From: Planctomycetota bacterium
GTDB lineage: Bacteria; Planctomycetota; GCA-002687715; DRQF01
NCBI GenBank assembly: GCA_011369445.1
Contig: DRQF01000207.1
Location: 1-54,894 of the forward strand
Length of the DNA: 54,894 nucleotides
Direction of reading: 5' to 3'
This document shows, piece after piece, positions 19,777 to 35,769 of this stretch; the first letter of the stretch is position 1, and every line of letters starts with the position of its first letter. The notes beneath the pieces were generated by a model. That model saw only the letters and a program-made list of their open reading frames with translations. It ran no database searches and was not told the origin of the DNA. The translations under genes and the position numbers were made by a program.

Positions 19777-22700
19777 TTGCCTCAGCGTCGTCTGCTTTCT
19801 CTCCTTGCTGCCGTCTGGCTCGTCGCAGTGGCTTTGGGCCAGGACACATCCCCCCTTGGTCGCCTCCAGGGGCGCTTGGTGGATGCTACGACGGGTGTTC
19901 CTCTCTCCGGCGTCGCTGTGTCCCTGATCCTGCATCGCGAAGGTCGTGACGAACTCCGAGGGGACGTGAGGTCCGGCTCGGACGGCCGGTTCATGTTGGA
20001 TTCCGGTGTCACGTCGGGCCTTGTCATCCTGCGTGGCGTGCGCCGTGATGGAGGAGTCTTCTTTCTTCCCCTCGAGACGACGCCGGCGGGGGAAGGACTT
20101 CTTCTCGGGGATGTCCCCGTACCGCCCGCGGGCGTCCTCGATGTCCAGGCGGTGCTCCCCGACGCCGACCCCTTTTCCGCCGAAGTCCGAGCCTTTCCCG
20201 CTTACGCGGACGGAGTACTCGACCCCTTGAAGGGGATCCCTTTGGCGAGCGCCCCGGTGGATCCGGAGAGCGGAGCGGCGCAGCTGTTTCTTGCGCCGGG
20301 TCGCTACGTTTTGCTTCTCACGGATGGATTTCGCACCTTTCAGCCCCTCGTGATTCCCTGGAACATGCCGCCCGGCACGGCTCGGCTGGGAACTCTCCTG
20401 CCCCGGGAGGGTGATCCTTTCGCGGCCGATCTGACATGGAACGGCGGCACGATTGGCGACTTCGAGGTCGAAGTCGGGTCCGGTGCGTGGCCCCTCGAAG
20501 GGGGCGCCGAGATTCTGCTGCGTTGTCGACCGCCTTTGAAGTCGTCGTTCGATGGGGGGCTCACCCTTCGCCTCGATCACCTGCCTGCCGGGCGCGTTCG
20601 CGTCGCCGCGCATGCGCAAGATTTCGGCGGGACATTTGTCGGTGCCACCGGGACCGCCCTTCATCAGTGGCGGATGTCGAAGGGGGCTGCCTTGGCGCTG
20701 CGGGTCTTGGACGTCGCAAGCGGACACGATCTGAACAAGGGGCGAATCCTCTTGGACGGACGCCCCGGGACCTCGGCGGGACTTCGGCATGTCTTCGAGG
20801 GGCTCTCCACGGGCTGGCACGATCTCTTCGTTTCCGTGGCGGGGCACGAGTCGGTGGAGGATCGCCGTTTGTACTTGGCGCAACAGGGCGTCCAACGCAT
20901 CGGCGACGTCGGTCTCGAGCCCTTGGCGCGCATCGAAGGGCAGGTGAAGGACTCTTCGGGGAAGCCAGCGCGGGGCGCCCTCCTTCTGCTTGCCGACCGC
21001 TCTTTCAAACAGACCGCAGGTGTTCGCGTGGTGGGGCGGACGGACGAAAAAGGGCGATTCCGACTGAGAGTCCGTTCCGACAGGATCGGTGATCTTGTCG
21101 TCTGGCACGACAGAGGGTTTGCGCGAGCGCCGGATTGGCTGCGCGCTTCTCCGGGAGGGGTCGAGCATTGGACGGCCAGACTTTTCCCTTGGTCGACCGT
21201 GAAAGTCGCGTGTCGCGATGACTCCGGAGAACCCGCCCCCGGAGTTTCGGTCTGGCTCATGGGGGGCGAGACGCTGGGGAGTCGCCGACAAAGGCCGCCG
21301 GAGTTCACCCAGCTTCTTTGGCCCCTCGCCCGGCGGGTGGTGACCAACGGGCAAGGCCAGGCCGTCTTCGAGCGCGTTCCCACCGGGACGTTCCAATTGG
21401 GAGTCCTGCATGCCCATGACGCTTGGGAACTTCACGGGACGGTCGAGGTCGGCTCTCCCGGAAGTGTGGTCGGTGAGCGACTCTCCTTGGCGCCGGAGAC
21501 CACGACGTCTCAGGCGATCCCCTGGGAGGGTTTTTGGCGGGTGCTCTGGGAGGACGACGTTCGCCCGCCCATGGACTTGGGGCGGCTCGATCCCGCGGAC
21601 GAGAATGCCTCCACCGTTCGTCTCCTTCCCGGGCAAAACCTCCGGTATCGAGAACTCGCCGACCTCGTCGATCCACCCCTTCCCAGCCTCGCGGCCTATG
21701 GCGGCGTGGGAGAAACCAGGTCGGAGCCCGAGCAGTTGCGGAAGGGGAAGCTCCCTGGCCATCTCGCTCCCACTTCGGCATGGGGTGAGCTTCGCGGCAC
21801 CGTGCTTCGCGGGGGGGATGCCTTGGGCGGACAGGGAGTCGACCTGATCGCTTATCCGGTGCGGGCCGCTTCGGGGCGGACGCCCCGTCGCATCGATCAC
21901 GACCCGGTCACCGGGCGCTTCCAGGCGGTGCTCCCTCGTGGGGTCTGGATGCTCCAGGCCCAGGCGCCCCATTGGGCTCCTTCCTGGGTGGGGCCCTTCA
22001 CTTTGGGCGTGGATGCGGAAGACGTTTACGTCGAGCGGAACGTCTACCTCATTCCCGGGGGGAGCGTGGAGGGCCGCCTTCGGGGGGCGGAAGCGTCGAC
22101 GATCATGCGCAGCGACGAAGAGGTGACGTGGGACCGCAGTCTCGACGATTGGTTGCGCCCCTTCCAGTTGCGCCGAGACACCGTGGGGGTCGATTCCCGC
22201 GGTGGTTTCCGATGGAGCGATCTTCCGCCCGGGGAGATTCGATTCCGTGGCGGTTCGGGTCTTTTGGCCGCGGCGGTCGTCGGTTCGGGGGCGGTGACGG
22301 ACCTGGGCCCCGTCGCCTTGCCGGGGGCGGCGAGCGACGAGGAGAACCAAGTGCTCCTCGAGGACCGGATTCTCGAGGCGCCCTTTCGTGCCGTCCCGGC
22401 TCGTTCGCCCGCACTCTTGGCGGGGCGGTATTTTCTGGAGAGGGCGGCTCCCTTGGGAGCGGGCTTTTGGCCCCGTCGCCTCATCTTGGCCGAGCGAGGG
22501 GATGACGGCAGGTGGCGAGACGGTGAGGAACCGTCGCCGCCCAGATCATGGAAGTCGGTGCGTCTGCGCCTGAGGAGAGACGGGCGTCCGGTCCAGGGGG
22601 CACGGATCCGGTTGCGACCGGTGGATGACGGAGCGTACGCTTACCACCGCGAGGCCACGGAAATGATCTCGGACGACCGGGGACGGAGCGAAGCGCGGAT

Positions 22701-23697
22701 TCCCCAAGGGCAGTGGGTCGTGGAAACCCGCCTCCGCGGCCGTGACGGGCGGCTCTACCGTATCGACGATGAGCGGCTCATCGCCCCACCGGGGCGCGAG
22801 ATCTGGGACTTGGACGTGGTGACGGCACCCCTGCGTGTCCGGGTTCGGGATGCCGCCGGGCGGCGTCCACTTCCGGGGGCGTCCGTGCGAGTTTTGAAGG
22901 GTCCTGCGCCCTCGGGGATCATCGAGACCGTCGCGCGTCGCCGCTCCTTGGAGATCGTTCGCGGCTGGACGAACGAGAAAGGGGAGCTGACGTTTTCCGA
23001 CATGCCCCTCGGAACCTATCGCATCGAGGTTTCTCATCCGGGTCTCGGACGTTCCGCGCTGGACGAGGTGAATCTGCGGCAAGCCAGACGGGAGGTGAGG
23101 GCGAATCTGGACCTGGGGGCCTCCGCATCGCTCGTGGTCGCTCTCACCGACGCGGACGGGGCGGCCATTCAGGGGGCCGAAGTGCTCCTCCTCGATAGGG
23201 AAGGGCACCGGGTTGCGGCGGAAAGACTCTTCCTCACCGACGAGGAGGGGAGAGTGGGGATTCACGGCCTCAGCCCGGCTGACTATCAGGTCATCGCCCA
23301 GGGATCCGGCCGACCCGCTCAATGGATCGGTGACGTCGATCTCAATCCGGGCGGAACGGCCGTCCTCGAGAGCGGGCTCGACCGCGGCGGATCGATTCAG
23401 GTGATATGTCGGACCCAGGGCGGCCGACCTTTGTCCGGTGTCGTGCTGACGTTGGTCTCGGAGGCCGGGCCGTGGCGCGCCGTCCCCGTGGGCGCTCTGA
23501 ATATTCATGAGCTCCCTCGCAGAACGGACGAGGACGGCGTGCTTGTCCGAGAGACCTTTCCCTATGGAAAATGTACCATCCGAGCCGAGCGGCCCGGCTT
23601 TCGAGCCCAGACGGTCGAGACGGTCATTCGACCGGGGGAGCGCACGGTGGAAATCCTCGTCATGACGCCCGGTGTGGAAAAGCCTTCGAACCGATGA
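19777..23697 (+). CDS. Large secreted protein with repeated carboxypeptidase-regulatory-like domains
   Basis: A 1306-residue exported protein. It appears to use a TTG start one base after thiL, with GGGAG eight bases upstream; no ATG fits, and the signal peptide (RRLLSLLAAVWLVAVALGQ) starts immediately. Several CarboxypepD_reg-like beta-sandwich units can be seen, each of the form G-x-V-x-D-x-x-G-x-P-x-x-G-A-x-V followed by T-D-x-x-G-x-F/V: near residues 15-85, 380-440, 670-760, 1010-1090, 1115-1180 and 1200-1290. The regions between are less regular. No LPXTG, anchor or enzyme motif was found. Function unknown; surface or periplasmic scaffold or carbohydrate-binding is the natural guess. Confidence 0.8.
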   Translation: MPQRRLLSLLAAVWLVAVALGQDTSPLGRLQGRLVDATTGVPLSGVAVSLILHREGRDELRGDVRSGSDGRFMLDSGVTSGLVILRGVRRDGGVFFLPLETTPAGEGLLLGDVPVPPAGVLDVQAVLPDADPFSAEVRAFPAYADGVLDPLKGIPLASAPVDPESGAAQLFLAPGRYVLLLTDGFRTFQPLVIPWNMPPGTARLGTLLPREGDPFAADLTWNGGTIGDFEVEVGSGAWPLEGGAEILLRCRPPLKSSFDGGLTLRLDHLPAGRVRVAAHAQDFGGTFVGATGTALHQWRMSKGAALALRVLDVASGHDLNKGRILLDGRPGTSAGLRHVFEGLSTGWHDLFVSVAGHESVEDRRLYLAQQGVQRIGDVGLEPLARIEGQVKDSSGKPARGALLLLADRSFKQTAGVRVVGRTDEKGRFRLRVRSDRIGDLVVWHDRGFARAPDWLRASPGGVEHWTARLFPWSTVKVACRDDSGEPAPGVSVWLMGGETLGSRRQRPPEFTQLLWPLARRVVTNGQGQAVFERVPTGTFQLGVLHAHDAWELHGTVEVGSPGSVVGERLSLAPETTTSQAIPWEGFWRVLWEDDVRPPMDLGRLDPADENASTVRLLPGQNLRYRELADLVDPPLPSLAAYGGVGETRSEPEQLRKGKLPGHLAPTSAWGELRGTVLRGGDALGGQGVDLIAYPVRAASGRTPRRIDHDPVTGRFQAVLPRGVWMLQAQAPHWAPSWVGPFTLGVDAEDVYVERNVYLIPGGSVEGRLRGAEASTIMRSDEEVTWDRSLDDWLRPFQLRRDTVGVDSRGGFRWSDLPPGEIRFRGGSGLLAAAVVGSGAVTDLGPVALPGAASDEENQVLLEDRILEAPFRAVPARSPALLAGRYFLERAAPLGAGFWPRRLILAERGDDGRWRDGEEPSPPRSWKSVRLRLRRDGRPVQGARIRLRPVDDGAYAYHREATEMISDDRGRSEARIPQGQWVVETRLRGRDGRLYRIDDERLIAPPGREIWDLDVVTAPLRVRVRDAAGRRPLPGASVRVLKGPAPSGIIETVARRRSLEIVRGWTNEKGELTFSDMPLGTYRIEVSHPGLGRSALDEVNLRQARREVRANLDLGASASLVVALTDADGAAIQGAEVLLLDREGHRVAAERLFLTDEEGRVGIHGLSPADYQVIAQGSGRPAQWIGDVDLNPGGTAVLESGLDRGGSIQVICRTQGGRPLSGVVLTLVSEAGPWRAVPVGALNIHELPRRTDEDGVLVRETFPYGKCTIRAERPGFRAQTVETVIRPGERTVEILVMTPGVEKPSNR

Positions 23698-23721: not shown

Positions 23722-24303
23722 ATGCAAGAGGACGAAGACGTCCAGCTCATGCTCGCGTTCCAGCAGGGCGATTACGACGCTTTCGGCACCCTCGTGGAGC
23801 GACATCAACCCCGATTGCTCCGCTATTTCCTTGCCCAGGCCCAGGATCGGCAGTTGGCGGAGGACTGCACGCAGGAGGTCTGGCGGAAAGTCTTCCTTTC
23901 CAGGGATAGCTATCAGCCCCGCGCCCGGTTCTTGACCTACTTGCTGAGGGTCGCTCGCAACCTGTGGATCGACGTCTATCGCGCCCGGAGTCGAAACCCA
24001 CGTCCCTATCTCACGGGGAGCGGCGGGAGCGACGAAGACGGCGGGGGATGGGATGTCCACGACACGGACGGCCGGACTCCGCTGGATGACTTGATGCAGT
24101 CCGAACAAGGCAAAAGAATCGCCCGTGCAATCATCATGTTGCCGGATTCCATGCGGGATGTTTTCGTTTTGTCCGAAGTCGAGGATCTTCCCTATCAGCA
24201 GATCGGCGAGATCCTCGATATTCCCGTGGGGACGGTGAAGTCCAGGATGTTCCACGCCGTGCGAAAACTCAGGGAAATCCTGAAGAAAGAGCTGAACGGA
24301 TGA
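23722..24303 (+). CDS. ECF-type RNA polymerase sigma factor
   Basis: A 193-residue sigma factor with regions 2 and 4 only. Region 2 runs from DYDAFGTLVERHQPRLLRYF through AEDCTQEVWRKVF and FLTYLLRVARNLWIDVYRA; region 4 is the helix-turn-helix LPYQQIGEILDIPVGTVKSRMFHAVRKLRE. A Gly/Asp-rich linker of about 35 residues joins them. GAGGGAGA precedes the ATG. It follows the large secreted protein by 24 bases and is followed 43 bases later by a one-helix membrane protein that may be its regulator. The target promoters are unknown. Confidence 0.92.
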   Translation: MQEDEDVQLMLAFQQGDYDAFGTLVERHQPRLLRYFLAQAQDRQLAEDCTQEVWRKVFLSRDSYQPRARFLTYLLRVARNLWIDVYRARSRNPRPYLTGSGGSDEDGGGWDVHDTDGRTPLDDLMQSEQGKRIARAIIMLPDSMRDVFVLSEVEDLPYQQIGEILDIPVGTVKSRMFHAVRKLREILKKELNG

Positions 24304-24346
24304 TCTTCCCGAGCGTTCTCATCCCCAACGAAGCCCGAGACCCGAC

Positions 24347-24910
24347 ATGATGAGCCCCGAAGACATTCCCACAATCGATCCCCAGCATGGTGAGGTTTCC
24401 GAGGAGCGGATTCGTCGTCTTCTTGACGACCTGGGACCGGATTTGAGGTCCTATCGGCAGGAATTGGCCGCTGCTGCCCGCATGGATTCGCGATCGCAGG
24501 CGCGAATGCGGCGCATGTTGGTGTCTTTGGTGCGTGAGGATGTCCGTCGGCGCTACGCCGACCAAGGGTTTGTGGCCCACGCACGCCGGACCTTCGGACG
24601 CATCTTGGGGGTGTGGAACCAGCTCCTCGCTCAATCCTCCGGTTTTCGTTGGCTCCATCACGGGGCCTTGAGTCTGGGGGTCGTTCTGGTGGTTTTCATG
24701 CTTTGGGACCTTTCTTCGGATTCTAGGACCACCGCGTCCTCCTCTGCGGCAGGGGCTCGCATGGAGCGCCTTTTGCCAAGAGAGCCTTCCCACCTCGGGC
24801 CGGTAGGAAATCCCGACTGGCAGCCCCGCGACGCCTTGGATGCCCGACGTTTGTCCGAGTCCCTTCCCGAGGGGTTTCAGGGCGCTCGGCGCATTCGGAA
24901 GAAGCGCTGA
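24347..24910 (+). CDS. One-helix membrane protein, possible anti-sigma factor
   Basis: A 187-residue protein I do not recognise. The N-terminal half is charged and predicted helical (RLLDDLGPDLRSYRQELAAA and ARMRRMLVSLVREDVRRRYA), one hydrophobic helix lies at about residues 105-120 (ALSLGVVLVVFMLW), and the C-terminal part is Ser/Arg/Pro-rich. This topology and its place after an ECF sigma gene fit an anti-sigma factor, but the zinc-binding HxxxCxxC signature is missing, so the call is inference. Two adjacent ATGs (24347, 24350) are possible starts. It is followed by a strong hairpin. Confidence 0.6.
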   Translation: MMSPEDIPTIDPQHGEVSEERIRRLLDDLGPDLRSYRQELAAAARMDSRSQARMRRMLVSLVREDVRRRYADQGFVAHARRTFGRILGVWNQLLAQSSGFRWLHHGALSLGVVLVVFMLWDLSSDSRTTASSSAAGARMERLLPREPSHLGPVGNPDWQPRDALDARRLSESLPEGFQGARRIRKKR

Positions 24911-24935: not shown

Positions 24936-25125
24936 TGAAGGGGGGGATTTCGTTCTCCTGATTTGACGTTTTCGTGCAGTGCAGGAGGAACCGGTGCGCC
25001 AAATGGTGACCCCGAGGGGGCGGGGGACCCTCCGTCTCCGACGAAAGACCCCCGCAAACCTGTCTATGTCGGTCTGAGAGCCCCGCGCGGCGGTCTCAGC
25101 GCTGTCTGGATGAAGATTTTTTGTA

Positions 25126-25140
25126 TGGCACAAGCATTGC
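25126..25140 (+). promoter_or_regulatory. Sigma-54 (RpoN) promoter, -24/-12
   Basis: TGGCAC at 25126-25131, five bases, then TTGC at 25137-25140. The GG and GC dinucleotides are exactly ten bases apart, as sigma-54 holoenzyme requires, and a T6 run lies just upstream of it. A start at about 25152 would give a 49-base leader before the small gene at 25201. The 290 bases between 24911 and 25200 hold no other gene; an inverted repeat CTGAGA/TCTCAG sits at 25074-25099. Confidence 0.68.
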
Positions 25141-25200
25141 GTGGTCGATGAATGTCGGAGACACGCAAGATTGAGACCCCGCGCCGGACAGAGGAGTCCC

Positions 25201-25374
25201 ATGATCATCAGATATTTCGATTCGATGAAGGGTGTTCGCTACTACCAAGTCTTCCTCCAGGGCGAGGAAGTGTTCATGGGGACATTGGGGGAGTGCAAGC
25301 GCTACATCGTGATTCACAACGAGAAGGTTCTGCTTCGCCAGGAGATGGACCGGAAATCTCGCGCCGCGGGTTGA
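25201..25374 (+). CDS. 57-residue orphan protein under a sigma-54 promoter
   Basis: A small soluble protein, not recognised. It begins MIIRYFDSMKGVRYYQVF and continues with EEVFMGTLGECKRYIVIHNEK; the alternating strands and the short helix around the single Cys suggest a compact alpha/beta fold. GAGGAG is four bases upstream of the ATG. A frame open from 25141 runs through the promoter and is rejected. The gene after it starts 62 bases downstream and may be cotranscribed. Because sigma-54 genes are switched on by an enhancer-binding activator, this may be a regulated adaptor or stress protein, but nothing in the sequence names a role. Confidence 0.65.
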   Translation: MIIRYFDSMKGVRYYQVFLQGEEVFMGTLGECKRYIVIHNEKVLLRQEMDRKSRAAG

Positions 25375-25436
25375 GTCTCGAACGGAGCGACGCCTCTTGG
25401 TGGCGATCGTATTCAGACGACATAGGATGGGAGGCC

Positions 25437-26705
25437 ATGAAGGCCTCCTTTTTTTTTGACATCGCGAAGTTCGTCGTCTGGGTCGCTCTCTCGGTCACGG
25501 GAGTCCAGCCCTTGATCGGACAGGTCCGACGCCCCGAAGTCTATCGGCCCTGGTTCGACGAAGTCGCCCTCTCCTCGTGTCACTCCCTCGTCGTGGCGCA
25601 TATCACCCGAGTCAACCGAATCGCCGACGGTCAGCGACTCATCCGGTTCGCCGTCGACGAAGTCCTCCGCGGCAAGGAAAGTGATCGCATTCTCGTTCTT
25701 TCGAGCGACGAGGGACTGGTGGCCTGGCCGGATCTCCAAAAAATCCTCTTCCTCGTCCCCTCGCGCAAGGGGCTGATGCGCCTCGTCGTCGATCACGTCG
25801 ACCTCCCCCAAGCGGACGCGGCGGAGAGAATCCGGTTTCTCCGCGCGTTGGTCCCGGTCTCGTCGATCATCGGTCCGGGGCGGCAGGCGATGTTCGTGAA
25901 AAACCTTCTGCGCACGTACCGCAACTCATCCTCTCCTTGGGTCCGTCGCATACTCGTCGAGGAGGCGAGGCGCCTGGCGGAACGGCGGCCGGAGACAGTG
26001 ACGGCCCGAGATCTGGAGTGGCTGACGAGTTTTTCCCTGCAGGGGTTGACGTCGGACATGCGCACCGTGTTCAACGAGGCTTTGGTCGATTTCAAGGAGG
26101 CCAACGCGCTTCGGTGGACCGAGGCCGACCTCGTCTTTCCCGATGCGGCGTCGAAGAAGAGTTTTCTCGCCAGTTACGCGCGATTCCAGGATGTTTCGAC
26201 CCCCGAGGCCGTGAGGCTCGAATTCCTCGAGAGCGCCATCAAGATCTTCGGTGAGAAGGCCTGTCCGATCCTCGTGCGTTCGCTCAGGGATCCCTCCGCT
26301 GCGGTTCGAAAGCGCGCTCTCGCCTTGATCAGGAAGACCCGCTACCAGCCAGGTTGGCGGGAGATCCTTCGCCTCGTTCGGCGCAGCCGATCCGCGGATG
26401 AGCGCATCCAAGCTCTGAGGACTCTCATGTTCGCCGTGCCGCTCCAGGCCGCGAGTGCGGTCATCAAGCTGGCGAAGAACGGGATGAAGACCCCGGAGGA
26501 GGATCGCGCCGTCTTGGAAGTCCTTGCGGCCATCAACAGTGGGGAGGCGAGCCTTTTTCTCGAGGATCTCGAGAAGCGTTGGCGGCGTGAGCCGGCAAAG
26601 AACAAAGGTCGACTCGCTCACCTCGAATACATTCGCAGTGACGCCTTCCGCCGGAAACTTCTCGGCGCCGGGTCCGGTGTTCTGGGAGGCGATCGACGCC
26701 GGTGA
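25437..26705 (+). CDS. Secreted HEAT-like repeat protein
   Basis: A 422-residue protein starting at an ATG two bases after GGGAGG. Residues 1-30 form a signal peptide or anchor (FFFDIAKFVVWVALSVTG). Residues 40-130 form a small beta-rich domain with VVAHITRVNRIADGQRLIRFAVDEVLRGKE. The last 170 residues show HEAT-like helical pairs (CPILVRSLRDPSAAVRKRALALI, ADERIQALRTLMFAV). The end overlaps an unlikely upstream ATG of the TolC gene; the latter's real start is 33 bases further. No enzymatic motif. A scaffold role for the following outer-membrane protein is possible. Confidence 0.75.
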   Translation: MKASFFFDIAKFVVWVALSVTGVQPLIGQVRRPEVYRPWFDEVALSSCHSLVVAHITRVNRIADGQRLIRFAVDEVLRGKESDRILVLSSDEGLVAWPDLQKILFLVPSRKGLMRLVVDHVDLPQADAAERIRFLRALVPVSSIIGPGRQAMFVKNLLRTYRNSSSPWVRRILVEEARRLAERRPETVTARDLEWLTSFSLQGLTSDMRTVFNEALVDFKEANALRWTEADLVFPDAASKKSFLASYARFQDVSTPEAVRLEFLESAIKIFGEKACPILVRSLRDPSAAVRKRALALIRKTRYQPGWREILRLVRRSRSADERIQALRTLMFAVPLQAASAVIKLAKNGMKTPEEDRAVLEVLAAINSGEASLFLEDLEKRWRREPAKNKGRLAHLEYIRSDAFRRKLLGAGSGVLGGDRRR

Positions 26706-26737
26706 TAGGGTGCGGGAGTGCAAGAGGGATTGAACTG

Positions 26738-28309
26738 ATGGATGAGGTACGCCGGCTCCGCGCCGGAATGATGGCTTTTTGGGTCGTCTTGCTCGTCGGG
26801 GGGGGCATCGCCCATCGCGGCGTGGCTCAGGAAGCCGGCCGCCCCCCCGCGCAGCGCAAGCTGAGGTTGGGTATCGAGGATGCGGTCCGTTTGGCGACGA
26901 CCCACAACTCGTCGCTCAAGGTGAGCTTCTTCAACCATCTCATCGACCGCACGCGGATCGCCGAGGCCGAGGCCGCCTTCGAACCGGTCGGTTTCGTGAG
27001 CGCCGACGGTGGTGTTTCCGAAGTGAGTTTCCCCCAGATCTTTCCCACCGGAAACATCAACCCCGACGGCACACCCGAATTCTTTCAAACGATCGTGACG
27101 GACAGTTCGGTCACGGCGGATTGGCTGGCGGGCGCCCGTGGACTGCTTCCCACCGGTGCGACATGGCAGTTGCAAGTTCGCACCGATTACCGCGATCGCG
27201 AGGCCGGTGGCCTCGTGAATCCGAGTTTCCAGACGGCCACCACCGCAACGTTCACCCAGCCGATCCTCCGCGGAGCTTGGTTGCAGTACAACCTTGCGGC
27301 GACACGTCAGGCCGAATTCGCGGAGCAACAATCTCGCCAGAGATTCCGCGGCGATGTGCTGGACACCATTCTTCGAGTTCACGAGGCGTATTGGAACTAC
27401 GTCTTCGCCATTCAGGACCTGAAGGTCAAACGACAGTCGCTTGCTGTCGCGCAAGAACTCCTGGATATCAACCGAATCAAGGTCGAGACGGGCGTGTTCG
27501 CCCCCATCGAGATCACCTCCGCCGAGGCGGGCGTCGCGTCTCGTGTGACCGACGTCCTCGTTGCGGAAAATCAGGTCAAGGAGACCGAAGACATCCTAAA
27601 GCGCCTCGTGCTTCCTTTCCGAGGGCTCGGGGAATGGAAGACGCAGATCATTCCGGTGGATATAGCCAGTGAAACCCGCTGGAAAATCCCCGACCTCGAG
27701 GATGCCATCCGCCTCGCCTTGAAGGAGCGGCCCGAGCTGCTGGAGGCCCGAATCCAGCTGCGCAGCCGCGATCTGTCGGTCGCCGTCGCAGACAACGAGA
27801 CGCTGCCGAAATTCGACGTCAAGGGCAGCGCGAACTTCACGGGACTGGACGCAACGTTCGAGGACTCGTTCCTAGGTGGATTCGGTCCCACGGGGGCCGA
27901 GAGTTGGAGCGTGGGCATGGCGCTGGAATTCCCTTTGGGCAACAAGGCAGCCCGCGCGAAGTTGAGTCGCAGCCGTCTCGAGCGGGATCAGGCCCTCTAC
28001 AGCTATCGAGATCTTCAGCTCGCCGCCGTGGCCGACGTGCGCAGTGCTTGGCGGGCGGTCAAGATCTCGGAGAAGACGATCGCCTCCCGCAAGAAGTCCG
28101 CGGAGCTGAAGGAGGAGGAACTCCGGAACGAGCGGGTCAAGCTGGACAGCAAGGTGTCGACGAACTTCGAGGTCTTGCGCGTCGAGGATGACTTGGCGCA
28201 AAGAAGGAGCGAACTCATTCGCACGCTGGCGGACTACCGCATCAATCTCGCCCGCCTGGCCCGAGCTCTCGGCTCGAGTCTCGACGTACTCAAGTGGCCG
28301 CGAAATTGA
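26738..28309 (+). CDS. TolC-family outer-membrane protein
   Basis: A 523-residue protein with a signal peptide (MMAFWVVLLVGGGIAHRGVAQ) and two OEP-type repeats: LGIEDAVRLATTHNSSL in the N-terminal half and IPDLEDAIRLALKERPELLEARIQL in the second. The family's mixture of long helices and strands follows (MALEFPLGNKAARAKLSRSRL). There is no lipobox. AGAGGGA lies nine bases before the ATG at 26738. No inner-membrane pump or adaptor is next to it; instead HEAT-like proteins flank it, so it may serve a pump encoded elsewhere or a secretion role. Confidence 0.87.
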   Translation: MDEVRRLRAGMMAFWVVLLVGGGIAHRGVAQEAGRPPAQRKLRLGIEDAVRLATTHNSSLKVSFFNHLIDRTRIAEAEAAFEPVGFVSADGGVSEVSFPQIFPTGNINPDGTPEFFQTIVTDSSVTADWLAGARGLLPTGATWQLQVRTDYRDREAGGLVNPSFQTATTATFTQPILRGAWLQYNLAATRQAEFAEQQSRQRFRGDVLDTILRVHEAYWNYVFAIQDLKVKRQSLAVAQELLDINRIKVETGVFAPIEITSAEAGVASRVTDVLVAENQVKETEDILKRLVLPFRGLGEWKTQIIPVDIASETRWKIPDLEDAIRLALKERPELLEARIQLRSRDLSVAVADNETLPKFDVKGSANFTGLDATFEDSFLGGFGPTGAESWSVGMALEFPLGNKAARAKLSRSRLERDQALYSYRDLQLAAVADVRSAWRAVKISEKTIASRKKSAELKEEELRNERVKLDSKVSTNFEVLRVEDDLAQRRSELIRTLADYRINLARLARALGSSLDVLKWPRN

Positions 28310-28365
28310 TCTGCGACGAGTCGGACGTGGATCTCTCACCGGAAGAGTGACTTTTCGAGGTGATC

Positions 28366-29781
28366 ATGATCCGCAACGGACTTCTCTATATCTTGGTCTT
28401 GGCGATCTCGGGAACCCTGGCGTGGGCTCTTTGGAATCAATGGCACGCCCCGGCGGAGCCTCCTCCTCTGGAGGGGATCGATGACCCCCTGTGGTATCGC
28501 ACAGCGGACTTCGCCACGCGTCGAGCGGCTCTCGAGAAACGTCTCGACCTGATGACGTCGACGCGCATCGCGGCCGCGGATGTCGGCCCCATCAAAGACG
28601 ATGTCGCCCTTCTCTGCAGGGATCCCCGCCTCGTGGACGTCGTCGTGCAACGCTTCAGGGAGCGAAAGGACATCAACACGGCGCAGCTCTCAGCGTTCAT
28701 GGAGATCTTTGCTCGTGTCAAGAATCCGAAGTTCGCGAAGCTTCTGTCCGAAGGAATCCACCATCGCGAATTCGAACCTCGCATCAACGCATTCGACGCC
28801 GCCTTGACACAGGGAGATCCGGCGATCTTGGCGGACCTGCGGACGGTGATGGGTTCTCAAGGCGGATATTCGCTGCGCCGCGTCATCGAGGCTCTTGGCG
28901 CGATCGGCGGTGACGAGGCTCTGGATCTGGTGACACGGGCCATTGCGTCCGGAGACCACGACGCCGTTCTTCAGGGGATCGCCACCTGCGTCGTCTATCG
29001 ACTCAATCGCGCCATCCCCATCCTCGAGCCTCTGCTGAAGGATGGGAGACGGGACGTCGCCCTCACGGCGGCTTGGGGGCTCGTCTCTTTGGGGTATTCG
29101 GGTGGGGCGGACGTCATACGTCGCTTGGCTCTCGATCGCGGCGTGGACCAGGGGACGCGCGCCCAAGCGGTGATCTATCTGCTCGAGACGTCCGGAAAGG
29201 CGGCGACGGAGACGCTGCGCCGGCTGCGAGCCGATCCCGATCCCAACGTGGCCTTCGAGGCCCGGTTGGGACTGATCCAGCTGGGGGACGAGGACGAGCT
29301 TCTGGCTCTCGACCGGGCTTTGCGTTCCGAGGATCCGGGGGAGCGCGAGCAGGGCGCGACCTTTTGCGCGGCTTCGGGACGAGACGAGGACGTGGAGCGA
29401 TTTCGCCGTGTCATGGGGTCTGTTGGACGGGCCGAGATCACTGCATTTCTGAACGCATTGCCTCGTGGGAGGGCTCCCGCGGCGTTGTCGATTCTGAAGG
29501 ATCTCTCCCGACCGGGCGGCCCGTATGAGCAGCTTGCGATCTCCCGATTCCACGAGTATGGGGATGACGGCGTGGAGGCCATCGAGACTCTTCTTGCGAG
29601 TCATCCCGAGGGGGAGCGACTGGGTTGGTTGATCAGCGCGCTCGGCTCCATCGGGACACCTCGTGCTCGTGACACCCTGTTGAAGATGCCCCCCCCACGA
29701 AGTCGACGCCTCTGGCTGTACTTGCGGAACAACGTGAGGGTCATCGATTTGGCCCTTCTCAAAAAGGGCGTCTTCGAGTGA
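28366..29781 (+). CDS. Membrane-anchored HEAT-repeat protein
   Basis: A 471-residue protein with one N-terminal helix (GLLYILVLAISGTLAWALW) and an outward-facing array of HEAT-like repeats covering most of its length: IEALGAIGGDEALDLVTRAI, GIATCVVYRLNRAIPILEPLL, ALTAAWGLVSLGYSGG, QAVIYLLETSGKAATETL and FEARLGLIQLGDEDELLAL are successive units. The ATG at 28366 follows GAGG by five bases; a GTG at 28360 is rejected. No catalytic motif; probably a scaffold. Its stop overlaps the next gene's GTG start (GTGA). Confidence 0.8.
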   Translation: MIRNGLLYILVLAISGTLAWALWNQWHAPAEPPPLEGIDDPLWYRTADFATRRAALEKRLDLMTSTRIAAADVGPIKDDVALLCRDPRLVDVVVQRFRERKDINTAQLSAFMEIFARVKNPKFAKLLSEGIHHREFEPRINAFDAALTQGDPAILADLRTVMGSQGGYSLRRVIEALGAIGGDEALDLVTRAIASGDHDAVLQGIATCVVYRLNRAIPILEPLLKDGRRDVALTAAWGLVSLGYSGGADVIRRLALDRGVDQGTRAQAVIYLLETSGKAATETLRRLRADPDPNVAFEARLGLIQLGDEDELLALDRALRSEDPGEREQGATFCAASGRDEDVERFRRVMGSVGRAEITAFLNALPRGRAPAALSILKDLSRPGGPYEQLAISRFHEYGDDGVEAIETLLASHPEGERLGWLISALGSIGTPRARDTLLKMPPPRSRRLWLYLRNNVRVIDLALLKKGVFE

Positions 29782-30350
29782 TCGAGCGACGCGAGGTCGT
29801 CGTGGCCGCCGAGGTGGAGGAGATGGGATCTCGCGTTGGTCGTTTCCTGGAGGATCAGGGTTACGAGGTGACTCAGGAAGAGTCCGGCCTTTCGGCTCGG
29901 CCACGGGGGCGATCCGCTCCATGGGGAGGGCGAAGCTGGGGAGCGGACCGCATCGTTTGCGGCTGGGCTTGCGGGGACTCTGGGAATGATGGCGCGCCGC
30001 GGACGATTCTCTGCGTGTCGCTCCATAGGAAACGTCGATGGCTCTCCACGGGGAGCCTGGCGCGCCTTCACCTGGAGGCGCTCGCGGACGCCCTCATCGC
30101 TGCCTCTCAGGCGGCGGTCGCGGCGGACCCCGAAGCGAGGGTTCGACCTCTCCGCAATCTCGTCAGGGCGACGATCGGTCTGAACGTGTTGCTCGCATTC
30201 TTGTTGCTGTTTTTCTTGGGAACCGTCCTGGGGCTCACCGTTCCGCAACGACTTCTCGCCGCGGGAGCCGTGGCGCTGTTGGACACGCTTGCCATTTCAA
30301 GCTTCGCGGCCCTGGTGATTCAGGGGACGCGAGCCTTCATGGGGCGATAG
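29778..30350 (+). CDS. Membrane protein of unknown function
   Basis: A 190-residue protein with a GTG start overlapping the HEAT-repeat gene stop. Residues 1-125 are soluble and charged; two hydrophobic helices follow (about 131-150, LNVLLAFLLLFFLGTVLG; and 156-180, LLAAGAVALLDTLAISSFAALV). A motif RTILCVSLHRKRRW precedes them. I do not recognise the family. Its 3' end overlaps the convergent GTPase gene by 14 bases, so antisense interference between the operons is possible. Confidence 0.65.
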   Translation: MIERREVVVAAEVEEMGSRVGRFLEDQGYEVTQEESGLSARPRGRSAPWGGRSWGADRIVCGWACGDSGNDGAPRTILCVSLHRKRRWLSTGSLARLHLEALADALIAASQAAVAADPEARVRPLRNLVRATIGLNVLLAFLLLFFLGTVLGLTVPQRLLAAGAVALLDTLAISSFAALVIQGTRAFMGR

Positions 30351-32067
30351 CTTCTTCCATCGCTCTCAACCGGCGAGCGATGTCGTCCAGCAAAGTGCGA
30401 TCCTCGGCCAGCTTGTTGTCCTCGAGGCCGAGCTCCGGCGCCACCACGGACTCCAATTCCCTCAACACGTCCTCCTGAAACTCCTGCTGGCGAATCGCAT
30501 CCAGAACGCGGCGGCGAGCCTCCTTCGCCGCGAGAGCGCGGAGGAAGCCGAGGATGATCAACAGGACGAGAGCCACGAAGGCCGCCGAGACCAGCAGATG
30601 GGCGGCTCCTGTCATCCGGATGAGTCGCCATGATAGGCGGACGGCCAACGATGCGGTTCCTCCATCCGGATCGAGTATCTCCTCGAGCAGAGGTTGAATG
30701 AGAGGAAACCAAAGGATGATCCCCCAGATCATGACCTTGCGCGCTCTGGAAGGCCTGGAGGCCGGAGAGTCGGCAAGAGAGTCGGGCGAGACGATGGCCT
30801 CGATCTTGGATTCGAGCCTTCGCATGGGGCCGTCCAGATCCGCCAGTTGCGTGGGCACGGGAGCGAGGCAGGGTGCGGGGACGAGGCTTCTTCGCCTGCG
30901 CCGCTCGAACAGCAAAGGAGTGAGGAGCGCGTCCAGCGGCTCGTTGGACGGCGGAGCACCCCCGTCGATGCCGGGGGTCAAGTGGCGAAGACGCCGGAGG
31001 TTTCCAGCCAGGCTTGCGATGGGCGACAGCAAGAATGCGAACTTGGGCAGGACGGGCCACGAGGCCAGTGTACGTCGGTAGATGTCCCGGGTCAGGGAAT
31101 CCACGAGGCGTCTTCGACCGAGTTTGCTTTCCAAGGCATGCCGCATCCGCGAGTCGTTCAGCGCCGATATCAGGTCTTTGCGCGTCGCCGCTCGCTCCTT
31201 AGCGATCTCGCGAGCTCTCTCCTCGATCTTCAGCCGAGCTTGGGCGCGGCTCATTCGGTTGCGGGCAAGGGCGATGCGATTCGAGGACTTGATTCGCTGA
31301 ATCTCTCTCGCCGTCCGCTCGCGAAACAACGCCGCCTTGAACGTCGAGAAGTCGTTGCCGGGGATGGCGGCTTCCGGATGAAGGGCCGAGAGAGTGAAGC
31401 AGGAGTCGCGGACATCGAAGGAGGAAAAGAGAGGCTGGATGACCTCCGTCACGCGCGCGCGAAAGGCTTCCTCGAGACGGGATGCCGCCCGAACCGGATC
31501 CGGTTCGGAGATCTCGTCGACCTTGTTCAGGACGAAGAAGAGGTTCGAGGGGTCAAGTGTCCGCGAATGACGTTTCATCCAGTCGGAAAAAAGGCGATCC
31601 GCGTACTTGGTCAGTGACGTCATCCAGATGACGATGTCCAAAAACGGTAGCGCTGCTTCGACCACATCCGCGTGTCGTCCAATGAGCCCGTCCATGTCGG
31701 GAAGATCGAGCAACACGAGCGAGCGGATCGTCTCGACGTCGTGAATACCCGGCGCCGTGGAAAGGTAGGGCCGGAGTGCCGGGACCCCCTGGAGAAGCCT
31801 CTCGTGATCGGCGTGGACGTACGGGACGATGCGATCGGTCGTCGGGCGTCGGGCACCCGTCATCGTGACCTTGCGCCCTGCCAGGGCGTTGACGAGGCTG
31901 CTCTTGCCGACTCCCGTCCCGCCGACGATCCCGACCAGGATGACGTCCGGGGAGATGTCCTCGTTCCGGGGCGTGTCCTCCGTCACGGAATCGGGCTTTG
32001 CGCCGGACCGCTCCTCTAACCTGTCCAGCAAGGCTTCGGCTTCGCGGAGCTCGTCGTGGAGGGTCAT
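30337..32067 (-). CDS. Dynamin-like membrane GTPase A
   Basis: A 576-residue GTPase. P-loop GGTGVGKSS is at 49-57, a threonine-containing switch I near PTTDR (74-79), G3 DLPDMDG at 121-127 and G4 NKVD at 181-184. After the G domain come long charged helices (about 255-340) and two hydrophobic segments (near 430-455 and 480-510), then a helical C-terminus. The G3 D-x-P-D in place of the D-x-P-G usual in dynamins, followed by KYAD, recalls a family of bacterial dynamin-like GTPases. Likely role: nucleotide-driven membrane remodelling or envelope quality control. Its ATG overlaps the stop of GTPase B, so a heteromer is likely. Confidence 0.8.
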   Translation of the reverse strand: MTLHDELREAEALLDRLEERSGAKPDSVTEDTPRNEDISPDVILVGIVGGTGVGKSSLVNALAGRKVTMTGARRPTTDRIVPYVHADHERLLQGVPALRPYLSTAPGIHDVETIRSLVLLDLPDMDGLIGRHADVVEAALPFLDIVIWMTSLTKYADRLFSDWMKRHSRTLDPSNLFFVLNKVDEISEPDPVRAASRLEEAFRARVTEVIQPLFSSFDVRDSCFTLSALHPEAAIPGNDFSTFKAALFRERTAREIQRIKSSNRIALARNRMSRAQARLKIEERAREIAKERAATRKDLISALNDSRMRHALESKLGRRRLVDSLTRDIYRRTLASWPVLPKFAFLLSPIASLAGNLRRLRHLTPGIDGGAPPSNEPLDALLTPLLFERRRRRSLVPAPCLAPVPTQLADLDGPMRRLESKIEAIVSPDSLADSPASRPSRARKVMIWGIILWFPLIQPLLEEILDPDGGTASLAVRLSWRLIRMTGAAHLLVSAAFVALVLLIILGFLRALAAKEARRRVLDAIRQQEFQEDVLRELESVVAPELGLEDNKLAEDRTLLDDIARRLRAMEEAIAP

Positions 32068-33716
32068 CGCTCACCCTCCGGCGCAACGGTTTCCTCCAAG
32101 ATACGCGCCGCCCTCGCGATGGCCTCGACCGATTCGGCGCCGGGCGGCAACGCCAGCAGGGCTTCGGCGTAGCGGCGGCGCTGCAGTCGGCGGGCGGCTT
32201 CGAGCTCGGCCTGAAACCGGCCACGGAATTCATCGAGCTTGCGTTCGACCTCACTCGTAAAGGCCGGGAGGCCCAAGGCGCGCAAGAGTTCGTGGAGCAG
32301 GGGCGGAACGATGGCCATCGAGAGGGCGACCACCACGAGGTTGAGGACGAGCCCGACGAAGAGACTCCCGAGTTTTCCCAGGGGTCCCGTCGAGTGACCT
32401 CGGGCCGCAGTCAGCGTTGCGATCATCCCCTGAGCCCAGGAGTGGATGTCGCCGCCCAGGGAACGGAATGCCTCGCGAATCTCCGAGGGGTCCAGTTCGG
32501 TGGCCGAGTCCGGCTCCGCCAGGAGTCGGCGCCCTTCCGGCGTCGACTGGAGGATCTCTCGCACCCGGACCCGGTCCCTCTCGATCCCCGCCATCCCCTG
32601 ATCCGCGACGCTGTCCAAGATTTCCTCTTGAGAGGGAAGCGCATCGGGACGAAGCGTGGTGAAGAGTCTGGCCGGGTTCCGTACCCAGCCGGCGATCCTG
32701 CGGAACACCGTTCGGTGGGAGTAGCGCAGGAAGAACCGTCCTTCCTCTTCGACGCGGCCGAGCTTCCTCAGCTTTTCCGCCGGATGAAAGCTGGCGGGCT
32801 CGATCTCGGCGGAGAGGATGGATTCCCCCAGCTGTTGCCTGGCGCGCAGATCGCGCTGGAGCGGTGTGAGGATTTCCTGGGCTACCCGGGTGGCGAGGAC
32901 CTGGCTCAGGACCCCTGCCTGGGGGCAGCCTGCGGACTCTTCCACGAATCGGCGAATGCGATCCATGATCGGATCGTCCTTCAACTCGGCCTGCGCGCCG
33001 CGGCGCAACGTGACGACTTCCGGGTCGGTGAGACCCAACTCTCGCAGCTTGGAAGCATAGTCTTCGCGCAGGCGATCTCGATGCTCGGGATCGACTTTGT
33101 TGAGGACGAAGAGCGTGGGAATCCTGAGATCGGCGATCTCTTTCAGCAGATCTCGCACGGAGGCGTCCGCGTAGCGTTCCGCCGACGTGACGAGGACGAG
33201 ACGTTCGGCCCAGGGAAGGACCCGAAAGGTCACCTCGCGATTGGCCAGAACGTGGGTGTCGTGATCGGGGGCATCGACGAGAGCAATGTCCTTGCCTGTG
33301 GTCAACGAGGAACGAAGAAACGTCATCGTGGATTCGCGGCCGCTCTCGCGATCGGAATCGGAAAACGCCTTCGCGAAAGTCGGAAACAGCAAGGCGTCAT
33401 CACATTCGGTCGCACTCAGGCCGGCCACGAGACCGCCGCGTGTCGATGGGCGTTCGATGGACGAAACCCGGGATGCGTCCCTGTCGAGGAGAATGTTGAA
33501 GAGGGTCGATTTCCCGGCTCCGGAGGGACCGACGATGAGAACGATGGATGGCGCATCGGGACGTCTCGCGGCCCGCCGAAGTCTTGATCTCAAGGCCGCG
33601 GCCATTTCGGCCAGGACGCGGGCTCGCGATTCCAGTTCCGGAAGATGAGGGACCGAGAGACCGGCAAGATGCGTGACCAGGCTCTTCAGCTCTTCGCTGG
33701 TGGGGCTGACCGTCAT
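32064..33716 (-). CDS. Dynamin-like membrane GTPase B
   Basis: A 550-residue GTPase related to its downstream partner. P-loop GPSGAGKST is at 63-71, G3 DAPDHDT at 148-154 (again D-x-P-D), RYAD at 181-184 and G4 NKVD at 206-209. A long helical middle (about 300-430) is followed by one or two hydrophobic helices near 460-490 (LFVGLVLNLVVVALSMAIVPPLL) and a coiled C-terminus (RRLQRRRYAEALLAL). The chosen ATG at 33716 overlaps the previous gene's stop (ATGA); an in-frame ATG at 33737 has no ribosome-binding site. Overlaps on both sides mark a three-gene operon. Confidence 0.8.
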   Translation of the reverse strand: MTVSPTSEELKSLVTHLAGLSVPHLPELESRARVLAEMAAALRSRLRRAARRPDAPSIVLIVGPSGAGKSTLFNILLDRDASRVSSIERPSTRGGLVAGLSATECDDALLFPTFAKAFSDSDRESGRESTMTFLRSSLTTGKDIALVDAPDHDTHVLANREVTFRVLPWAERLVLVTSAERYADASVRDLLKEIADLRIPTLFVLNKVDPEHRDRLREDYASKLRELGLTDPEVVTLRRGAQAELKDDPIMDRIRRFVEESAGCPQAGVLSQVLATRVAQEILTPLQRDLRARQQLGESILSAEIEPASFHPAEKLRKLGRVEEEGRFFLRYSHRTVFRRIAGWVRNPARLFTTLRPDALPSQEEILDSVADQGMAGIERDRVRVREILQSTPEGRRLLAEPDSATELDPSEIREAFRSLGGDIHSWAQGMIATLTAARGHSTGPLGKLGSLFVGLVLNLVVVALSMAIVPPLLHELLRALGLPAFTSEVERKLDEFRGRFQAELEAARRLQRRRYAEALLALPPGAESVEAIARAARILEETVAPEGER

Positions 33717-34324
33717 GGGATCGATTCGTTCCGCCATCGGAGATGTTTCTGCCAACCCCGTGTCTTTCGTGCGAAAGGATAAGATCTCTCGTTCGGCGGT
33801 TTTGCCAGCCACGGATCGGGGGGATGCGTGACGCCCACGAAAAGGGGGATGGCATGTTCCCATGACCGCAAGAATCCGAAGGAGTCCGCGACGAAGAGGC
33901 GTCGACCGGGGTCGCCCCACTCCTCCGGCCAGGCGTATGCGATCCAGAAACGGGGGTTGAGCGTCACATCCTTGACCGGCGCCTCGGCATGGGGTTCTCC
34001 CAGGGAATCGGCGAGCGAGACTCGAAAGCAGTACCCGTTGAGGAGGAGAATCCCGTCTTCGACCTTTCCGCGGCCATGGCCGGGGACGGTCGTCTCCAGC
34101 GCGCCCGAATCGACGAGCTCGTTGATGAACAAAGGGCGCATCGGAGACCGGCCCGATTCCAAATGTTCTCTCTCCAGGCGTGCGATCGTGGCCAGTTGGC
34201 CCTTGGCCCAGGCCTCGGCGGCGAGCGAGTCTCGAGCGCGATCGCGGGCTTTCCAAAGCCACCCCAACGAGGCGACGATGAGAAGCAGCGTCACGGTCGA
34301 AGGGATCCAGGGCTTCGTCTCCAT
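33713..34324 (-). CDS. Pseudopilin-like single-helix membrane protein
   Basis: A 203-residue protein with an N-terminal helix (TVTLLLIVASLGWLW) followed by AKGQLATIARLEREHLESG and small beta elements (GILLLNGYCFRVSLA, RFWIAYAWPEEW). This order, an anchor helix running into a long helix then a beta sheet ending in a 'gY-x-F' strand and a LFVADSFGFL strand, resembles type II secretion pseudopilin-like proteins. There is no prepilin-peptidase site (no GFTLIE), so it would stay anchored. First gene of the GTPase operon; it probably presents a periplasmic domain. Family call is by pattern only. Confidence 0.6.
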   Translation of the reverse strand: METKPWIPSTVTLLLIVASLGWLWKARDRARDSLAAEAWAKGQLATIARLEREHLESGRSPMRPLFINELVDSGALETTVPGHGRGKVEDGILLLNGYCFRVSLADSLGEPHAEAPVKDVTLNPRFWIAYAWPEEWGDPGRRLFVADSFGFLRSWEHAIPLFVGVTHPPDPWLAKPPNERSYPFARKTRGWQKHLRWRNESIP

Positions 34325-34515
34325 GGGCCCACTCTAACCCAGGGGGGAGGGAGTTCGAATCCCGGCCGGGTCGTGTCCCCGCCCCGAAGAATCCTGACGT
34401 TTGTCGGGGGAACCTCCGATTCCGTAAGGTCGGGAGACGGCCTCGGTCGGCTCGGACCGAAGACCGCCGCTTCGGTGAGGCCGAATCGCGGGCGGAGACA
34501 CGAAGAGAGCGGGAC

Positions 34516-35769
34516 ATGAACGAAACCAGAAGCTTGGTCGCTGCGCGTAAGGTCGCCCAAGGGCTGCGGGATGCCGGCCGCGAGGTTTGGTTCGTGGGGG
34601 GGTGTGTTCGGGACGATCTGCTGGGAAGGGAGCCCGCCGATTACGACCTCGTCACGTCGGCGCGCCCGGAGGAGGTGCAGAAGCTCTTTCCCCGTCACGT
34701 CGCCATCGGCAAGCAATTTGGCGTCATCGGGGTGCTCCAAGGGGGGCGGACCGTCGAAGTGGCGTCTTTTCGCACGGAGTCCGACTACCGAGACGGCCGG
34801 CATCCCGGCGTCGTGGGGCCGGCGACCGCGCAAGAGGATGTGCTTCGGCGCGACTTCACGATCAATGGCCTGTTGATGGACCCCTGGACCCGCGAGGTCG
34901 TGGACTTCGTCGGCGGAAGGGCGGATCTCGAGGCAGGAATCATCCGCTGCATCGGTGAGCCCGCTTTGCGCTTCGAGGAGGATCATCTTCGCATTCTTCG
35001 CGCCATCCGTTTCGCAGCGCGGCTGGGCTTCGTCATTGAGGAAGAGACGGCCGCGGCCATCCAAGCCGCGGCACCCATGGCCGGAACGCCCAGCCCGGAG
35101 CGGGTGAAGGCCGAGCTCGAGAGAATGTGGACGGAGGGGGGAGCCGGGCGAGCGCTCCGCATGCTGCGCGATCTCGAGGTTCTGCCCCACGTCCTTCCAG
35201 AGTTGGCCGCAAACCGAAATCGCTCCTTGGAGGCGCGGTGGCAGGTCGAGGGTTGTTCCTTTCCGACGGTGCTGGATCGGACCGTGGCCGTTCTCGAGAA
35301 CGCCGAGGGCGAAAAGCTGGACGCTCCGGTGGCTTGGTCCCTCGTGCTGGACGATCTCGTCGACGGGTTCCCCGTTGCCAGGTCGAAAGAGGGGCGCCGT
35401 GTCCTCGAACGACTGCATTCGAGCCGCGACCTGATGAACAAGGTCGAGGATCTGGTCCGCTGGAGGGATCGACTGGTCTTTGCCACGGACGTGAGTCGAG
35501 CGCGTCGCCGACTGGTTGGCGCTTTTCGGGGCCTGGACGCCCTCATCGCCTTTCACGGGAGGGAAGCCGCCGTGGCCGCCTCTCATCGACCCGAGAGGGA
35601 CTGGGACGCACTGGAAAGGGTTCCGCTCCCGCCCCCGTCCGTGGATGGCCGCGCGCTGATGGCGAAAGGAGTTCCGCCGGGCCCCGCGTTGGGCCGAGCC
35701 TTGCGTCGGGCGAGGTTCATCCAGCTCGAGAAGGAGGAGGCGCCGAAAAAGGGGGATGGCGCCTCATGA
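34516..35769 (+). CDS. CCA-adding/poly(A) polymerase family nucleotidyltransferase
   Basis: A 417-residue class II nucleotidyltransferase. GGCVRD at 28-33 and DYD at 42-44 form the active site, RRDFTINGLLMDP and DLEAGIIRCIGEPALRFEEDHLRILRAIRFAARLGF are the family's motifs B-D region, and SPERVKAELERM follows. The enzyme either adds CCA to tRNA 3' ends or A-tails RNA; the two activities cannot be separated by eye. No HD domain was seen; the C-terminal half is divergent. The last six bases overlap the convergent ubiA gene. An adjacent 191-base gap (34325-34515) contains no gene. Confidence 0.88.
   Translation: MNETRSLVAARKVAQGLRDAGREVWFVGGCVRDDLLGREPADYDLVTSARPEEVQKLFPRHVAIGKQFGVIGVLQGGRTVEVASFRTESDYRDGRHPGVVGPATAQEDVLRRDFTINGLLMDPWTREVVDFVGGRADLEAGIIRCIGEPALRFEEDHLRILRAIRFAARLGFVIEEETAAAIQAAAPMAGTPSPERVKAELERMWTEGGAGRALRMLRDLEVLPHVLPELAANRNRSLEARWQVEGCSFPTVLDRTVAVLENAEGEKLDAPVAWSLVLDDLVDGFPVARSKEGRRVLERLHSSRDLMNKVEDLVRWRDRLVFATDVSRARRRLVGAFRGLDALIAFHGREAAVAASHRPERDWDALERVPLPPPSVDGRALMAKGVPPGPALGRALRRARFIQLEKEEAPKKGDGAS

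Follow-up and report, generated by a model that had tools for sequence, protein, structure and literature searches.

A predicted sigma-54 unit headed by a small-protein gene and followed by envelope genes in Planctomycetota

Most of what is known of sigma-54 control in the Planctomycetota comes from motif scans. The window analysed here, meaning the whole 54,894 nt stretch of planctomycete DNA under study (contig DRQF01000207.1), carries a sequence with the form of a sigma-54 promoter a short distance before a gene of 57 codons, and this raises the question of whether the sequence is a promoter or a chance match and, if it is a promoter, which genes it serves. The comparisons described below indicate that a sigma-54 promoter under enhancer control very probably operates here, with the gene of an undescribed, presumably cytoplasmic small protein at the head of its unit and envelope genes following.

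The Sigma-54 Element and Its Conservation

The features at the head of the predicted unit are as follows.
25126–25140, plus strand: sigma-54 −24/−12 element TGGCACAAGCATTGC, an exact match that is kept upstream of orthologues
25192–25196, plus strand: ribosome-binding site AGGAG, from the sequence
25201–25374, plus strand: 57-aa small protein encoded at the head of the unit (its family occurs in 12/12 genomes of the order; substitutions mostly third-position; AlphaFold pLDDT 92.7)

The first-pass annotation described sigma-54 spacing ahead of a small gene with a ribosome-binding site, and both observations hold. The GG-N10-GC arrangement of TGGCACAAGCATTGC is exact and is the sole exact match in the window, while the gene has an ATG start, 57 codons and AGGAG just upstream. 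Transcription is predicted to start at about 25152, which would give a leader of 49 nt before the small gene. The same annotation considered a chance match unlikely from the motif alone, and this argument had to be given up. At one mismatch or fewer, the window contains 2 matches against 2.2 in shuffled sequence, and the genome-wide scan for other such sites that it had proposed (4.5 Mb) returned 8 exact matches, compared with 5 for the reversed pattern. The motif by itself is therefore weak evidence, and its rarity was not used further.

What does set the element above chance is its conservation upstream of homologues, which were divided into the orthologues of the window's gene (class A, n = 12), paralogues at other loci with FEC-I/V-FEG near the start (class B, n = 11) and family members elsewhere in the phylum (class C, n = 29). 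The 140 nt upstream of each gene were scanned for TGGCACN5TTGC, with shuffles and the reversed motif as controls. Counting related sequences, which are non-independent samples, and allowing no more than a single mismatch, the element was present in 9/12 class A loci (0.07 on average and never above 1 in shuffles; 0 for the reversed motif) and 10/29 class C loci (shuffles 0.07), and in none of the 11 class B paralogues. At two mismatches, the corresponding values were 11/12 (shuffle mean 0.99), 16/29 (1.39) and 2/11 (0.52) for classes A, C and B, respectively. The distance from element to start codon varies from 39 to 102 nt in class A (39–75 nt for the nine counted at one mismatch or fewer), and the remaining upstream sequence shows a global identity of 0.50–0.56 at most in several pairs, so the element has been kept against an unconserved background. 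Four families (f6, f49, f36 and f27) have the small protein and lack the motif.

Two findings named beforehand as ones that could overturn the promoter reading were a lack of motif conservation upstream of homologues and the absence of rpoN. The motif is conserved upstream of 9 of the 12 orthologues, and rpoN is present in the genome (PF04552, E = 1.5e-60); together they uphold the assignment of a sigma-54 promoter. The presence of rpoN is expected rather than specific, since the gene is near-universal in the phylum sample (369/392 Planctomycetota); it was not found in 4 of the 39 genomes bearing the small-protein family, all four of which are drafts. The genome also has 12 strong matches to the sigma-54 activator domain, at least seven of them with GAFTGA, and none of these activator matches lies on the window's contig. 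Conditional expression of the small gene may fairly be inferred from sigma-54 biology.

The Small Protein Family

Substitutions between close relatives fall mostly at third codon positions (18/21 and 16/20 in the comparisons made), indicating that the ORF is truly coding. Earlier labeled an orphan, the protein instead belongs to a phylum-level family: a single-sequence search found relatives in 18/59 genomes, and a profile search found the family in 39/392 sampled Planctomycetota, with all 12 genomes of the window's order carrying it. The named homologue matches were only to Planctomycetota and Planctomycetia, and a search of plasmids for the small protein gave no match. No Pfam or NCBIfam profile matched above cut-off, and searches of PDB sequences and folds and of viral models returned nothing significant. 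In the AlphaFold model, three beta strands are followed by a helix at residues 29–56. A signal peptide was absent by inspection, which suggests a cytoplasmic protein. Whether it regulates or assembles envelope products from there is a guess, and a doubtful one.

Class B paralogues, among them L075 (G000:C244), L064, L066 and L109, occupy other loci, without sigma-54 sites. In several genomes, the class B gene lies directly before a gene with a radical-SAM-like start (CNLxCVMC motif; resemblance by eye).

Candidate Enhancer Sites

Two candidate activator-binding dyads lie upstream of the element.
24962–24979, plus strand: candidate enhancer site 1, TTTGACGTTTTCGTGCAG, the best position-matrix match with a matrix made without the window's own genus (p = 0.003 against shuffles)
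24994–25011, plus strand: candidate enhancer site 2, GTGCGCCAAATGGTGACC, a consensus and matrix match that aligns with dyads of two same-family relatives

Activator sites of sigma-54 promoters lie roughly 80–200 nt upstream, and in all 12 class A loci a dyad close to TGCAC-N6-GTGCA is found in the sequence 104–155 nt before the −24 element. In the window, the center of site 1 lies 155 nt before the −24 TGG, and site 2, which is 32 bp downstream of site 1, is centered 123 nt before it. Paired dyads 31–33 bp apart occur in the window, L017, L018 and L019, the second site of L018 being weak. The consensus was first spotted by eye in the upstream regions; an unbiased search covering all 5-mer dyads with spacers of 2–12 came later and ranked TGCAC-N6-GTGCA first in class A (8/12, against a shuffle maximum of 4). 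A leave-one-genus-out matrix test gave p ≤ 0.013 in all 12 loci. In family f59, the unbiased search returned GTCCC-N6-GGGAC in 7/9 upstream regions (shuffle maximum 4), and the members L057, L060, L083, L084, L087, L088 and L063 carry GTCYC-N6-GGGAC 148–152 nt before the −24 element. The two dyads are alike in geometry and different in sequence. No dyad rose above shuffles in the upstream regions of class B.

When the genomes of the order were searched for exact dyads, sites adjoining a sigma-54 element were found only upstream of the small genes, with the exception of one two-mismatch element in L140, and most of the remaining sites lay within ORFs. Exact dyads were abandoned as a route to the wider regulon or its activator. 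Between the enhancer sites and the promoter there is also a 26 bp imperfect palindrome, CTGAGAGCCCCGCGCGGCGGTCTCAG (25074–25099), which was dropped as a candidate enhancer because no matching conservation was noticed in relatives.

Downstream Genes and Their Linkage

Downstream of the small gene, the following features were recognized.
25429–25449, plus strand: terminator-like hairpin and T-run, with the ATG of the next gene in the loop
25437–26705, plus strand: secreted protein with a signal-peptide-like N-terminus, a five-stranded OB/NTR-like domain and HEAT repeats (linkage; HEAT profile; model pLDDT 84.5)
26702–28309, plus strand: TolC-family outer membrane efflux protein (PF02321, E = 4e-41)
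28360–29781, plus strand: HEAT-repeat protein, a possible further member of the unit (PF13646, E = 1e-19; neighbor in 7 loci)

The first-pass annotation was right about the sigma-54 promoter, but it missed both the enhancer dyads and the secreted-protein and TolC genes. The secreted-protein gene lies downstream of the small gene, in the same orientation, at 36/41 loci (11/12 in class A and 25/29 in class C), the contig of the twelfth class A locus ending before the gene could be seen, and at none of the 11 class B loci. Presence of the promoter is associated with this linkage (25 and 1 versus 11 and 15; Fisher p = 4e-5, uncorrected for relatedness). Among families that lack the small gene, homologues of the secreted protein had no convincing upstream sigma-54 element, a single two-mismatch match being seen in 1 of 10 loci. 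The five-stranded domain is at the N-terminus of the modeled protein, and its weak fold matches include the complement C3b C-terminal domain and RecO, which are NTR and OB folds, respectively. The TolC-family gene overlaps the secreted-protein gene by 4 nt, and TolC-like genes are present in the cluster at 12 loci.

Hairpins are found at the matching place in two same-family relatives (L090 and L091). The idea that a terminator regularly follows the small gene was discarded, as terminator-like structures are not widespread in the larger set. No Rfam matches were found in the window. The hairpin, whose loop contains the secreted-protein start codon, could control readthrough or translation.

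Elsewhere in the window, upstream of the small gene, there is an ECF sigma factor gene (23722–24303), and several relatives have an ECF-like gene upstream as well; behind the window's ECF gene comes one predicted to encode a membrane stretch, the pair spanning 23722–24910. A 1306-aa protein with carboxypeptidase-regulatory-like repeats is encoded at 19777–23697 and has a counterpart at the equivalent place in L090. Two adjacent GTPase-like genes occupy 30337–34517 on the minus strand, the first of which matches Dynamin_N and MMR_HSR1.

Proposed Mechanism and Alternatives

From the computed motif, its conservation, the dyads, the gene linkage and the presence of rpoN and activators, we infer the start site, cotranscription and looping as follows. 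An NtrC-type activator, encoded elsewhere, would bind the dyads at 24962–25011, and DNA looping would bring it to RNA polymerase-sigma54 held at 25126–25140, where ATP hydrolysis would open the promoter for transcription from near 25152. The first product would be the 57-residue cytoplasmic protein of the undescribed family. Part of the message, at least, probably runs past the hairpin at 25429–25449 into the secreted OB/NTR-HEAT protein and the TolC-like channel, so the unit would serve the cell envelope in response to a specific signal.

It could still be argued that the motif is fortuitous and that some other, unrelated promoter drives the small gene, given that exact matches in the genome barely exceed the reversed control; this is highly improbable, as the conservation and matching enhancer dyads recur in several families and are absent from the paralogues. 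A more serious alternative, possible although we think it rather unlikely, is that the promoter serves the small gene only, the hairpin terminating transcription and the secreted-protein and TolC genes having their own promoter. The hairpin and T-run are strong, with hairpins alike placed in two relatives, and most transcripts may stop at the hairpin, just beyond the small gene. However, the gaps to the secreted-protein gene in class A are mostly 26–90 nt, the linkage extends across many families, terminator-like structures are not general, and the hairpin overlaps the start codon of the secreted-protein gene.

That overlap, and the position of the ORF before the secreted-protein gene, would also suit a small ORF that is mainly a regulatory leader, its translation controlling readthrough of the hairpin. 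This is very unlikely in view of the protein-level constraint seen in the third-position changes, the confident fold and the class B paralogues that stand alone elsewhere, which argue for a functional protein, and again the limited occurrence of the hairpin. Under the preferred reading, an enhancer-dependent unit extending into the envelope genes, a tentative extension is that the small-protein family supplied the founding gene of a sigma-54 module devoted to the envelope, in which the architecture has been kept and the enhancer sequence swapped between lineages (TGCAC-N6-GTGCA versus GTCYC-N6-GGGAC), with the small protein perhaps acting as a cytoplasmic regulator.

Comparison with Known Systems

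At this locus the conservation of promoter, enhancer and gene order goes together and has internal negative controls, which makes it a well-defined regulon anchor. With two enhancer sequences to compare, the activator might be traced by setting the activators of the different lineages side by side. The small protein can be compared with DUF1508/YegP-like small proteins, in which strands likewise precede a helix, through PDB 3bid, one of its weak PDB matches (Foldseek E about 1, TM about 0.36). Membership was not assigned, there being no sequence match and a TM of about 0.36.

The predicted Planctomycetota sigma-54 regulons of PMC12316311 are alike in phylum and promoter type. That study reports COG families, and a text search of it found neither small proteins nor TolC; such regulons were also predicted by Studholme and Dixon (2004), as cited there. 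Similar in architecture are the NtrC-type sigma-54 promoters of E. coli NtrC targets, with which the locus has in common the GG-N10-GC element and NtrC-like half-site dyads upstream of −24. The E. coli NtrC consensus is a 17 bp box, TGCACCAnnnTGGTGCA (PMC8743547). The class A dyad (TGCAC-N6-GTGCA) has half-sites matching that box and is 16 bp long, its spacer one base shorter, and for this reason it is not called an NtrC site. In four class A loci the dyads come in pairs about 32 bp apart, a further resemblance to the E. coli targets; the target here differs in being a small-protein and envelope unit.
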